From positions 62,001 through 126,000 of the forward strand of contig NZ_JACYXK010000019.1 of assembly GCF_014842975.1 (NCBI RefSeq): 64,000 nt of DNA, written 5' to 3'. Below are positions 30,461-59,114 of this stretch, one piece after another. A model generated the notes under the pieces. It was given only the letters and a program-made list of their open reading frames with translations. It was not told the origin of the DNA and ran no database searches. The position numbers and the translations under genes were made by a program. This stretch comes from Rhodanobacter sp. DHB23. GTDB lineage: Bacteria > Pseudomonadota > Gammaproteobacteria > Xanthomonadales > Rhodanobacteraceae. Each line of letters begins with the position of its first letter. Position 1 is the first letter of the stretch.

Positions 30461-30465
30461 TCTGT

Positions 30466-30513
30466 GCGCTCATCCTTGATCGCGAAGATCAAGAAGCGGC
30501 CATCCATGGCCGC
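30466..30513 (-). repeat. GGA-hairpin repeat element, locus 1
   Basis: Read on the minus strand, two modules: GCGGCC-ATGGAT-GGCCGC (30513-30496, perfect 6-bp stem) and GCGATC-AAGGAT-GAGCGC (30483-30466, one mismatch). The flanks GAAGAGT and TTCTTGATCTTC are shared with loci at 45.38 and 56.14 kb. The GGA face is antisense to rplT/pheS. Confidence 0.8.
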
Positions 30514-30541
30514 ACTCTTCAAGGGATGCGCGTAACGTCTG

Positions 30542-45366: not shown

Positions 45367-45477
45367 ACTCTTTTCGAAGAGTGCGGCCATGGATGGCCGC
45401 CCGTTTGATTTTCGCGATCAGGGATGATCGCAAAGGTAACTCCCGCCCGTTTGATTCTCGCGATCAAGGATGATCGC
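45367..45477 (+). repeat. GGA-hairpin repeat element, locus 2 (three modules)
   Basis: A UUCG-loop hairpin ACTCTT-TTCG-AAGAGT (45367-45382) is followed on the plus strand by GCGGCC-ATGGAT-GGCCGC (45383-45400), GCGATC-AGGGAT-GATCGC (45414-45431) and GCGATC-AAGGAT-GATCGC (45460-45477). All have perfect 6-bp stems, and the last two modules are a tandem duplication with flanks CCCGTTTGATT. The neighbours upp and psiF are on the minus strand, so the GGA face is antisense to both. Confidence 0.88.
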
Positions 45478-45512
45478 AAAAACAAAGCGCCGCCTTGTCG
45501 CGGCGGCGCTTT
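45478..45512 (-). terminator. Intrinsic terminator of psiF
   Basis: On the minus strand an 11-bp stem AAAGCGCCGCC / GGCGGCGCTTT (7-nt loop) is followed by GTTTTTG, 22 bp after the psiF stop. Confidence 0.85.
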
Positions 45513-55773: not shown

Positions 55774-56103
55774 ATGAGTCTTCCGATGTCTTTCACGCTG
55801 GCCCAGGCCGCCCCGGGCGCCCAGGGCGGCGGCCTTTCCATGATCATCATGATGGTGGTGCTGTTCGGCCTGATGTATTTCATGATGATCCGCCCGCAGA
55901 TGAAGCGGCAGAAGGAGCATCGCACCATGCTCTCCGCCCTCGCCAAGGGCGACGAGGTGGTGAGCAACGGCGGCCTGGCCGGTCGCGTGGACGACATCGG
56001 CGAAACCTTCATCACGATCGAGATCGCGCCGAACGTGAAGGTGAAATTGCAGAAGGGCTCGGTGGCGCAGGTGCTGCCCAAGGGCTCGCTGAAGTCCGCC
56101 TGA
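55774..56103 (+). CDS. yajC: Sec translocon accessory subunit YajC
   Basis: 109-residue single-span inner-membrane protein that associates with SecDF. The hydrophobic helix (MIIMMVVLFGLMYFMMI, about 24-40) is followed by RPQMKRQKEH and the cytoplasmic domain ALAKGDEVVSNGGLAGRVDDIGE. ATG 55774 gives the usual length (E. coli 110); the ATG at 55786 is a close alternative. Confidence 0.95.
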   Translation: MSLPMSFTLAQAAPGAQGGGLSMIIMMVVLFGLMYFMMIRPQMKRQKEHRTMLSALAKGDEVVSNGGLAGRVDDIGETFITIEIAPNVKVKLQKGSVAQVLPKGSLKSA

Positions 56104-56138
56104 GCCGCAAGGCCGGGACACAGGCTTTCACGAACAGT

Positions 56139-56248
56139 GCGGCCACGGACGGCCGCTTCTCGACCTTCGCGGTCATGGACGATCGCAAAAACAAACCGCG
56201 GCCACGGACGGTCGGCTGGCTGACGTTTGCAACACGGATGGCTGCAAA
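56139..56248 (+). repeat. GGA-hairpin repeat element, locus 3, in the secD 5' region
   Basis: Four consecutive hairpins on the sense strand: GCGGCC-ACGGAC-GGCCGC (56139-56156); GCGGTC-ATGGAC-GATCGC (56169-56186, one G-U pair); GCGGCC-ACGGAC-GGTCGG (56198-56214, about 5 bp); and TTTGCA...C-ACGGAT-G...TGCAAA (56226-56248). Every loop is A-N-GGA-Y closed by C-G. The last stem ends against AAAGGA, the secD ribosome binding site. This matches the multi-site layout of CsrA/RsmA-repressed leaders. Confidence 0.85.
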
Positions 56249-56257
56249 GGACTACCG

Positions 56258-58141
56258 ATGAGCGATTTTCCCCGCTGGAAATACGCGCTGGTCGCGCTGG
56301 CGATGCTGTTCGGCATCTTCTACGCGTTGCCCAATGCGTTCCCGCCGCTGAAGGCGGTGCAGGTCTCTGCCAACCAGGGCAGCGCACCGGCCGACGACGC
56401 GCTGCGCCAGAAGGTGGCCGACGCGCTGGTCAAGGGCCACGTGGCGACGACGGGCCTGGAGCTGCAGGGCGACCACCTGCTCGCCACCTTCGCCAACGCC
56501 GACGTGCAGAAGAACGGCGCGGACGCGATCAAGGCCCTGCTCGGCGACGGCTATACCGTGGCGTTCAAGCTGCAGTCCTCGGTACCGCGCTGGCTGGCCG
56601 CCATCCATGCCAATTCCATGCCGCTGGGCCTGGACCTGCAGGGCGGCGTGCACTTCCTGATGCAGGTGGACCAGAGCGGCGTGCTCGACAAGCTGGAGAA
56701 CAGCTATGCCGACGACATCCGCGGCCAGTTGCGCGACAAGAACATCCGCTACGAATCGGTGACGCGCAGCACGGTGGCCGGGCAGGGCATCGTGGTGGTG
56801 CTGCGTTCGGAGGCCGACCGCTCCGGCGCGGCCGACCTGATCGCCGGCAACTCGCCGGACCTCGCGGTGACCGACGGCCCGAGCACCGGCGACCGCTTCG
56901 TGTTGTACGCCGCGCTCAAGCCGACCAAGCTGCGCGACATCTCGCTGGGCACGATCAAGCAGAACCTCGCCACGCTGCGCAACCGCATCAACAACCTCGG
57001 CGTGTCCGAGCCGCTGATCCAGCAGCAGGGCGAAGACCACATCGTGGTCGAGCTGGCCGGCGTGCAGGATCCGGCCGAAGCGAAGAAGATGATCGGCGCC
57101 ACCGCCACGCTGGAGTACCGCCCCGGCATCGGCTACCCCGGCGACCCGCGCGCGGTGGAAGCCGCGCAGAGCGGCAGCATCCCGCCGGATGCCAACCTCT
57201 ACTACACCAGCAACGGCCACGTGCCGGTGCTGGTGGGCAAGCGCCCCATCGTCACCGGCGACCAGCTGGTGGACGCCAGTTCCGGCGTGGACCAGAGCAA
57301 CGGCACGCCCTCGGTGAACGTGACGCTGAACGCCAGCGGCGCGGCGAAGATGCAGGAGTTCACCAACAACAACGTCGGCAAGCCGATGGCGGTGCTGCTG
57401 ATCAACACCGTGTACGAGACCAGCACGGTGGACGGCAAGGAAGTGCGCACGCCCAAGACCGACACCAAGGTGATCAACGACGCCACCATCCAGAGCCCGT
57501 TCGGCAAGGAGTTTTCCACCAACGGCCTGGGCAGCCCCAAGGAAGCTTCCGACCTGGCGCTGCTGCTGAAGAGCGGCGCGCTTGCCGCGCCGATGGACAT
57601 CGTCGAGGAGAACGTGATCGGCCCCAGCCTCGGCCAGGAGAACATCACCAAGGGCTTCGACTCGGTGATGCTCGGCCTCGCGCTGGTGCTGCTGGCGGCG
57701 GCGATCTACTACAAGCTGTTCGGCCTGGTCGCCGACATCGCGCTGTTCTTCAACCTGCTGATCCTGGTGGCGGTGATGTCGCTGATCGGCGTCACGCTCA
57801 CCATGCCGGGCATCGCGGGCATCGTGCTGACGCTGGGCATGGCGATCGACGCCAACGTGCTGATCTGCGAACGCGTGCGCGAGGAGCTGCGCAACGGCTC
57901 CACGCCGCACGCGGCGATCCATGCCGGCTACGACAAGGCCTGGGCCACCATCCTCGACGCCAACGTCACCCACCTGATCGCGGCGCTGGCGCTGATGACG
58001 ATGGGTACCGGCGCGATCCGCGGCTTCGGCGTCACGCTGGGCATCGGCATCCTGACCTCGATGTTCACCTCGGTGGTGATGACGCACGCGTTCACCGCGC
58101 TGATTCACGGCCGCCGCAAGCTCAAGACCTTGTCGGTCTAA
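56258..58141 (+). CDS. secD: Protein translocase subunit SecD
   Basis: 627-residue inner-membrane subunit that uses the proton gradient to pull proteins out of SecYEG. TM1 (KYALVALAMLFGIFYALPNAFPP) is followed by a large periplasmic region with GLDLQGGVHFLMQVD (P1 base) and five C-terminal helices with GMAIDANVLICERVREELRNG. ATG 56258 follows AAAGGACTACCG. The 154-bp gap after yajC holds four GGA hairpins. Confidence 0.97.
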   Translation: MSDFPRWKYALVALAMLFGIFYALPNAFPPLKAVQVSANQGSAPADDALRQKVADALVKGHVATTGLELQGDHLLATFANADVQKNGADAIKALLGDGYTVAFKLQSSVPRWLAAIHANSMPLGLDLQGGVHFLMQVDQSGVLDKLENSYADDIRGQLRDKNIRYESVTRSTVAGQGIVVVLRSEADRSGAADLIAGNSPDLAVTDGPSTGDRFVLYAALKPTKLRDISLGTIKQNLATLRNRINNLGVSEPLIQQQGEDHIVVELAGVQDPAEAKKMIGATATLEYRPGIGYPGDPRAVEAAQSGSIPPDANLYYTSNGHVPVLVGKRPIVTGDQLVDASSGVDQSNGTPSVNVTLNASGAAKMQEFTNNNVGKPMAVLLINTVYETSTVDGKEVRTPKTDTKVINDATIQSPFGKEFSTNGLGSPKEASDLALLLKSGALAAPMDIVEENVIGPSLGQENITKGFDSVMLGLALVLLAAAIYYKLFGLVADIALFFNLLILVAVMSLIGVTLTMPGIAGIVLTLGMAIDANVLICERVREELRNGSTPHAAIHAGYDKAWATILDANVTHLIAALALMTMGTGAIRGFGVTLGIGILTSMFTSVVMTHAFTALIHGRRKLKTLSV

Positions 58142-58157
58142 GGGCGGGATTCAATCC

Positions 58158-59114
58158 ATGGAAATCTTCAACCACAACAGCAACATCCACTTCCTGCGCA
58201 TCCGCGTCTTCAGCGTGGCGATAGCCGTCGTGCTGATGGTCGCCTCGGTCGCGCTGCTCGCCACCAAGGGCCTGAACTATGCCCTGGACTTCACCGGCGG
58301 CGTCTCCCTGGTGGTGGACTATGCGCAGCCGGTGCAGACCGGCGACGTGCACGACGCGCTGGACAAGGGCGGCATCGAGAACCCGGTGGTGCAGAGCGTG
58401 GGCGGCAGCCGCGAGGTGTCGATCCGCATGCAGCCGACCAAGGCGATGCTCGACGCCAAGGGCCAGGTGGACCTGGACAAGGTCTCCGGCACGGTGATGG
58501 GGGCGCTCAAGGCCGCACGCAGCGACGCCACGCTGAAGAGCCGCTCCTCGGTCAGCGCCGAGGTGGGCGCGGAACTGAAGAGCGACGGCATGGTCGCCGC
58601 GGTGTTCGTGATGCTCGGCATCATGGCCTACCTGTGGATCCGCTTCGAACGCCGCTTCGCGATCGCCGCGGTGCTCACCGAAATCCACGACACGCTGGTG
58701 ACGCTGGGCATCCTTGCCCTGACCGGACGCGAGTTCGACATGACCGTGCTGGCCTCGGTGCTGGCGGTGATCGGCTACTCGATCAACGACAAGGTGGTGG
58801 TGTTCGACCGTATCCGCGAGCTGTTCCGCCTCGCGCGCAAGGCCGAGCCGGAGGAGATCCTCAACCGCTCGATCAACAGCACGCTGTCGCGAACCATCAT
58901 CACCTCGCTGTTCACCGGCATCACCATGGCCGCGCTGTTCTTCTTCGGCGGCCCGGCGGTGCACAACTTCGCGATCACCATGCTGATCGGCATCCTGGTG
59001 GGCACGCTCTCCTCGATCTTCGTGGCCAGCCCGATCCTGCTGTGGCTGGGCGTGTCGAAGAAGGACCTGATGCCGACGACCAAGGAAAACCCGGAGCTGG
59101 CACGGCGCCCATAA
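58158..59114 (+). CDS. secF: Protein translocase subunit SecF
   Basis: 318-residue partner of SecD. TM1 is near 15-37, followed by FTGGVSLVVDYAQP, a periplasmic loop, and the C-terminal helices with VIGYSINDKVVVFDRIRE (conserved Asp/Arg network) and NSTLSRTIITSLFT. It starts 16 bp after secD. Length matches the family (E. coli 323). Confidence 0.97.
   Translation: MEIFNHNSNIHFLRIRVFSVAIAVVLMVASVALLATKGLNYALDFTGGVSLVVDYAQPVQTGDVHDALDKGGIENPVVQSVGGSREVSIRMQPTKAMLDAKGQVDLDKVSGTVMGALKAARSDATLKSRSSVSAEVGAELKSDGMVAAVFVMLGIMAYLWIRFERRFAIAAVLTEIHDTLVTLGILALTGREFDMTVLASVLAVIGYSINDKVVVFDRIRELFRLARKAEPEEILNRSINSTLSRTIITSLFTGITMAALFFFGGPAVHNFAITMLIGILVGTLSSIFVASPILLWLGVSKKDLMPTTKENPELARRP

Follow-up and report, generated by a model that had tools for sequence, protein, structure and literature searches.

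The yajC–secD intergenic region

The window, by which we mean the whole 64,000-nt stretch of Rhodanobacter sp. DHB23 DNA analyzed here, carries yajC, secD and secF in that order on its plus strand. The yajC gene occupies 55774..56103, with the start picked by eye from the sequence and the stop codon at 56101–56103; secD lies at 56258..58141, as established by gene search and comparison with relatives, and secF at 58158..59114. The 154-nt gap between yajC and secD contains a series of four hairpins on the same strand. Hairpin 1 (56139..56156) has the form GCGGCC-ACGGAC-GGCCGC and emerges from sequence, pairing and predicted fold, and hairpin 2 (56169..56186; GCGGTC-ATGGAC-GATCGC) and hairpin 3 (56199..56214; CGGCC-ACGGAC-GGTCG), each with one G-U pair, are seen from sequence and pairing. 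The initial annotation had described four A-N-GGA-Y hexaloop hairpins closed by C-G before secD. This description holds for the first three, in which C-G closes every loop, while the fourth (56226..56248) is irregular: its arms, TTTGCA (56226–56231) and TGCAAA (56243–56248), enclose an 11-nt loop, ACACGGATGGC, rather than forming a 6-bp stem on a hexaloop, although a lone inner C-G pair within that loop can close ACGGAT. Likewise, the 3′ arm of this last stem overlaps the AAAGGA Shine–Dalgarno sequence (56246..56251) instead of abutting it, as had been stated. The ACGGAT at 56234–56239 places an A(N)GGA motif less than 30 nt upstream of the secD ATG at 56258 and near the Shine–Dalgarno sequence. 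Three more GGA loops lie upstream, at 56145–56150, 56175–56180 and 56204–56209; they are assigned to local hairpins by pairing and not by predicted fold.

The predicted stability of the leader is close to that of shuffled sequence (z −0.53 for 135 nt and z −0.41 for 201 nt). In the fold of the 135-nt leader, hairpin 1 is the only one of the four to appear in the minimum-energy and centroid structures, and the minimum-energy structure of the 201-nt fold has none of them. The expectation that such hairpins are more frequent than in randomized sequence was borne out: the two strands of the window together hold 11 ANGGAY hexaloop hairpins with a stem of at least 5 bp, whereas 100 simulations with a first-order Markov model gave a mean of 0.98 and never more than 4, and for six control loop patterns the real window has 1–3 hairpins each. 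The only Rfam matches above the gathering score in the whole window are three tRNAs, with none for the hairpins; between 56000 and 56400, allowing E up to 1, there is a single match, at 17.4 bits (E 0.46), where the gathering score is 81.

A dispersed repeat of paired hairpins

The hairpins before secD make up two copies, arranged head to tail, of a two-hairpin unit of about 55 bp that is dispersed in the genome and not specific to secD. Hairpins 1 and 2 are the A and B hairpins of the first unit (56137..56190, plus strand; 66.3 bits with covariance model R1; G000:C10:118137-118190). Hairpins 3 and 4 are those of a second, diverged unit (56196..56249, plus strand; 26.1 bits; G000:C10:118196-118249), and the unit's tail supplies the AAAGGA sequence, as the sequence and a comparison of leaders indicate. 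In the alignment of copies, the unit reads GTGCGGCC-ANGGAY-GGCCGC, a spacer of 12–13 nt, GCGATC-ANGGAY-GATCGC and AAAG, with a near-constant CANGGAYG loop and variable stems. The core of the unit, GGCCANGGAYGGCC, occurs 92 times genome-wide versus 3 times for the reversed pattern.

A genome search with R1, which models the hairpin pair, returned 143 matches at E ≤ 0.01. With one overlapping opposite-strand match dropped, the remaining 142 form 95 clusters of 1–5 units, and strands are mixed in none of the 95. The genome of a second species (G213) gave 119 matches, 118 after the same correction, and again strands are mixed in 0/76 clusters. Further copies within the window itself stand at 45381..45481 (plus strand, two model matches) and 30462..30515 (minus strand). 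Both are antisense to the two genes flanking them, and the latter lies 1 nt away from the stop codon of the gene on the opposite strand.

Among the 15 genomes of the genus, our own included, 14 carry the family, at 3–143 copies each, the exception being an incomplete genome. At two sites that we examined, the unit is absent from several relatives, some of which show other repeats in the same gap. At loci L196, L200, L212 and L213, gaps that hold the unit in our genome carry other repeats in these relatives, among them long inverted repeats and REP pairs of the GTAGGAGCGC type. The core also recurs often in some further genomes of the order, the richest among 199 other genomes searched being G003. 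This repeat was rejected as a member of the same family, since the four stretches read (L298–L301, from another family of the order) hold a distinct composite repeat, about 127 bp long and partly in tandem, with ATGGAT and AGGAT loops on unrelated stems. Among the matches listed in our searches of the open-licence literature, we came across no account of the hairpin repeat, and its core strings do not occur there. We regard the family as new and REP-like.

Position and orientation of the copies relative to genes

By gene calls from a script that was trained on the codon usage of the window, rather than from an annotation, 89 of the 95 clusters in the Rhodanobacter sp. DHB23 genome are intergenic and 6 lie inside called genes; the corresponding figures for the second species are 3/76 inside called genes and 1/76 at a gene edge. 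When the flanking genes were classified relative to the strand bearing GGA, we obtained 43 opposite/opposite, 21 same/same (the secD cluster included), 19 convergent and 6 divergent cases in the first genome, and 30, 22, 14 and 6, respectively, in the second. Co-directional gaps show an excess of antisense copies in the first genome (43/64, p = 0.008) and the same direction, not significant, in the second (30/52, p = 0.33), these p-values being unadjusted and the two genomes sharing descent. The 3′ end of the unit falls within 10 nt of the stop of an opposite-strand gene in 37/62 and 21/44 cases in the two genomes; it comes as close to the start of a gene on its own strand in only 3/27 and 2/28.

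The copies are numerous and chiefly intergenic, they vary in presence among relatives as dispersed extragenic repeats do, and they form one-strand arrays that lie mostly 3′ of genes in both orientations. The family behaves as a REP-type DNA repeat of the gaps 3′ of genes. No shared function is evident, by eye, among the 27 proteins encoded downstream of sense copies.

Stems, loops and evidence for RNA hairpins

Among 198 hairpins, 58 have the stem GCGGCC/GGCCGC and 46 GCGATC/GATCGC, followed by GCAGCC/GGCTGC, GCGTTC/GAACGC, GCGCTC/GAGCGC and others, with the pairing mostly kept. The 198 were chosen for ANGGAY, and the constancy of the loop is better judged from the retention of GGA in hairpins with at least 5 pairs: 105/115 in antisense versus 54/59 in sense orientation. 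Many copies have GGA without selection for it as an mRNA feature. Because GGA is retained alike in both orientations and the majority of copies are antisense, RsmA/CsrA binding cannot be the general role of the family.

If the hairpins act in RNA, the transcribed strand should tolerate G-U but not A-C mismatches. In the co-directional clusters of the first genome, the transcribed strand has 32 G-U versus 9 A-C (p = 0.0004, each variant counted once per cluster), and in the second species 17 versus 9 (p = 0.17). The spacer, used as a control, has no such asymmetry (C>T 15 versus G>A 6 in antisense and 13 versus 6 in sense copies, with a consensus spacer of four C and two G). In our view, the wobble asymmetry lends moderate support to hairpins forming in RNA whichever way a copy is oriented. 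A rival hairpin, in which the spacer pairs with the 5′ arm of hairpin B, was rejected: among matches with a non-GATC arm, scored at four variable stem positions and with 70/142 matches that did not fit the pattern excluded, hairpin B's own 3′ arm is fully paired in 18/34 and the spacer in 1/34. Thus, hairpin B is the structure that has been kept.

The secD leaders of relatives

A SecD search found 103 relatives, of which we kept 80, mostly from Rhodanobacter, Dyella, Frateuria, Luteibacter and Fulvimonas. Units were found in the yajC–secD gap of 15/80 loci, amounting to 22 matches at E ≤ 0.0002, all of them sense; the only antisense matches in these gaps are two with E 0.51 that overlap sense ones (L056 and L072). 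In all 15 unit-bearing relatives, the last unit ends 8–13 nt before the secD ATG, and its Shine–Dalgarno-like tail supplies AAAGGA in 11 of the 16 leaders, that of the window included. In the CANGGAYG proximal to the Shine–Dalgarno sequence, which is hairpin 4 in the window, the C, A, GG, A and G are invariant in 16/16 leaders, whereas the loop of the preceding hairpin, the third, lacks GGA in 5/16. The stems of these leaders have 21 G-U versus 4 A-C over 38 hairpins, or 16 versus 4 with each stem counted once. On a quick SecD tree, the presence of the unit before secD requires 9 changes. The L072 leader resembles that of L056, yet the L072 SecD groups with L051/L071, a mismatch that makes leader exchange likely, such that the 9 changes need not equal independent insertions. 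Across the 80 loci, the yajC stop lies 29–161 nt upstream of secD.

In the final 20 nt or so ahead of secD, the 65 leaders without units (of L041–L120) mostly present, by eye, a GCCGCGGC-type hairpin, then TTTGAYGGATKCAAGGC and then the ATG. GGA occurs at −24 to −7 in 54/65 of them, and in 33/65 it can be placed in a weak hairpin, with a stem of at least 4 bp, at the Shine–Dalgarno sequence. More broadly, ANGGAY is found at −36 to −7 in 59/80 secD leaders, i.e., all 15 with units and 44 of the 65 others, in contrast to 5/75 secF leaders and 0/73 yajC leaders (the secF starts having been located by sequence pattern and the yajC starts guessed from length). Bare GGA in the same interval precedes secD in 70/80, secF in 69/75 and yajC in 15/73 loci; being equally common before secF, it leaves the contrast between secD and secF dependent on the flanking A and Y.

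Within the same family, a sample of 25 out of 26 genomes has ANGGAY near the Shine–Dalgarno sequence of secD in 10/25 and GGA in 21/25. Among 20 secD leaders from other families (14 of these from a single family), none has ANGGAY near the Shine–Dalgarno sequence and one has it roughly 60 nt before the start codon. In L334, L335 and L338, from another family of the order, we noted by eye GC-rich hairpins with GGGA in the loop, proximal to the Shine–Dalgarno sequence before secD, so that a hairpin at this position may predate the repeat.

The secD–secF gap has no unit in the window; 7 of the 76 readable secD–secF gaps of relatives contain one (E ≤ 0.002, all sense), whose second hairpin is not the usual one. 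These are at about 3387–3451 of L044, L049, L050, L061, L079, L095 and L101, from Rhodanobacter, Frateuria and Dyella, with hairpins such as TGGAA-ATGGAC-TTCCA. The gaps of L042, L077 and L078 match the model only weakly and in part, and in antisense (E 0.03–0.28); they are long and contain several GC-rich hairpins, including GGCC-(A/C)TCCAT-GGCC, which has the antisense form of the loop.

RsmA/CsrA as a candidate reader of the secD leader

The host has a csrA gene, as the initial annotation presupposed (a PF02599 match of 92.6 bits at G000:C27:92856-93011). The consensus ACARGGAUG is quoted for CsrA/RsmA in PMC3937308, and PMC4066749 gives a rule for targets based on A(N)GGA and multiple sites in the leader; the secD loops fit the consensus. 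According to PMC3937308, the hrpG leader of Xanthomonas citri is bound by RsmA at AGAUGGAUUU, and two other GGA-bearing leaders, those of hrpC and hrpE, were not bound. A part of the bound sequence, GAUGGAUU, is found again in several secD leaders without units. Like such regulated leaders (e.g., X. citri hrpG in PMC3937308, and the multi-site rule of PMC4066749), the secD leader has A-N-GGA near the Shine–Dalgarno sequence and further upstream, in a host with csrA; unlike them, its candidate sites derive from a dispersed repeat, many copies of which lie off the mRNA strand. No report of secD control by RsmA was found in the open-licence literature among the matches listed, in agreement with the initial annotation, which knew of no description of secDF under RsmA or of such repeats. 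As judged from these motifs, RsmA is a fair candidate for the reader at secD, and RsmA/CsrA control of secD in this bacterial family is plausible. Predicted folding, in which the leader is no stabler than its shuffled versions and most or all of the four hairpins are missing, weighs against it.

Probable adoption of a repeat copy as the secD leader and alternative explanations

We consider it probable that a dispersed repeat of the REP kind had one copy adopted as the ribosome-binding leader of secD, and that this leader now tunes SecD translation. Its unit is a pair of short hairpins, with variable stems, near-constant C-ANGGAY-G loops and the 12–13 nt spacer. In transcripts, most copies would be nothing more than plain RNA hairpins past stop codons, their loops presenting UCC instead of GGA. 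The SecD tree suggests that in several lineages a sense copy took over from an older secD leader. The tail of the unit would then have become the Shine–Dalgarno sequence of secD, and the leader would now tune translation via its hairpins. Since A-N-GGA-Y beside the Shine–Dalgarno sequence has been kept in the repeat-type leaders and in many of the older type, RsmA/CsrA binding there, blocking ribosome entry, would be the likeliest reader. We propose this step tentatively, the remainder being divided between structure-only control and no regulation.

If the secD leader is indeed controlled by RsmA, the protein-export motor would enter the RsmA regulon, and the locus would show clearly how a dispersed repeat can become a ribosome-binding leader. 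Even without RsmA, the combination of fixed loops, variable stems and no linked transposase in this genome poses the question of how the repeat spreads. A more far-reaching conjecture, which we think quite unlikely, is that the repeat loop is a ready-made RsmA/CsrA site: a copy landing in the sense orientation would supply both a Shine–Dalgarno sequence and RsmA sites and could bring genes such as secD, and secF in relatives, under RsmA, and the RUCCNU loops of antisense copies in other mRNAs could pair with sense copies loop to loop.

Hairpins adjoining the Shine–Dalgarno sequence could also control secD without RsmA, through their folding or through coupling to yajC translation, with the loop fixed by the spreading machinery or by folding. 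This accords with the GC-rich hairpins seen by eye before the Shine–Dalgarno sequence in many secD leaders of the order, some of which have no GGA, with the wobble asymmetry as a sign of RNA hairpins from sense and antisense copies alike, and with the yajC end standing 29–161 nt upstream at the 80 loci; as it leaves the A-N-GGA-Y proximal to the Shine–Dalgarno sequence in two unlike leader types unexplained, we judge it possible, albeit on the unlikely side.

A neutral origin of the secD copy appears less likely still. By this account, a chance insertion happened to bring a usable Shine–Dalgarno sequence, and the uniform orientation and spacing result from few events or from recombination; the frequency of copies in intergenic gaps, the leader exchange noted above and the unremarkable fold of the leader are all in line with it. 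What argues against it is that all 22 leader matches and all 7 secD–secF matches are sense, as opposed to 21/64 sense clusters in co-directional gaps genome-wide, that the loop proximal to the Shine–Dalgarno sequence is kept while the preceding loop decays, and that secD leaders without units often keep ANGGAY.

The initial annotation, taken in full and applied to the repeats as a whole, would mean that the hairpins exist because RsmA/CsrA binds them, that secD translation is repressed and that all the repeats are RsmA targets or act as a sponge. The match of the loops to the consensus, the host csrA, the invariant loop beside the Shine–Dalgarno sequence and the GAUGGAUU shared by the hrpG site and several non-unit secD leaders all speak for it. 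Its extension to the repeats in general fails on the 43/64 co-directional gaps in which GGA is on the non-transcribed strand and is retained equally, to which are added the mixed genes downstream of sense copies and the third leader loop devoid of GGA in 5/16 species, and as a whole it is improbable. A-N-GGA hairpins in such genomes should not be read as RsmA sites before their strand and copy number have been checked.

Relationship to known repeats and leaders

The MIRU-type intergenic tandem repeats of mycobacteria are dispersed units of 50–100 bp between genes, which form one-strand tandems and are placed at stop codons. The present family is similar in its dispersed intergenic units, one-strand tandem copies and location at stop codons, but its sequence is unrelated, and it differs in its paired hairpins, fixed loops and occurrence in both orientations relative to genes. 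For the leader, the secDF2 genes of Vibrio controlled by VemP provide a parallel, as a hairpin adjoining the Shine–Dalgarno sequence sets secDF translation. The adjoining hairpin is common to both; in our case, however, yajC and not a leader peptide gene stands upstream.

The REP/BIME elements and their RAYTs, as described in PMC2817692 and PMC3733652, resemble the family in being short extragenic palindromes of high copy number that lie beside stops or supply them and vary among strains. In contrast to these, the unit here consists of two different hairpins in the same orientation, with a near-constant loop and variable stems, and occurs in head-to-tail arrays. PMC2817692 defines GTAG-type REPs by the tetranucleotide GT(A/G)G, located at the palindrome's foot; this is absent from the hairpin foot of our unit, whose consensus in alignment A1 starts with GTGCGGCC. 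The genome has two PF01797 matches to Y1 transposases (L190 and L191), in frames of 323 and 83 aa; the 3-kb loci of both contain no ANGGAY hairpin whose stem reaches 4 bp. The family as a GTAG-type REP mobilized by a RAYT transposase in this genome, for which one could cite its more than 100 short extragenic palindromes near stops and the two Y1 matches, was rejected and can be given hardly any credence, given the missing GT(A/G)G head, the lack of any unit match within 57 kb of either Y1 gene and arrays that are not alternating. As a minor observation, the 5′ flank and hairpin foot of the unit consensus read AAGTGCGG, which resembles the core of the Haemophilus uptake sequence, a resemblance that we presume to be coincidental.
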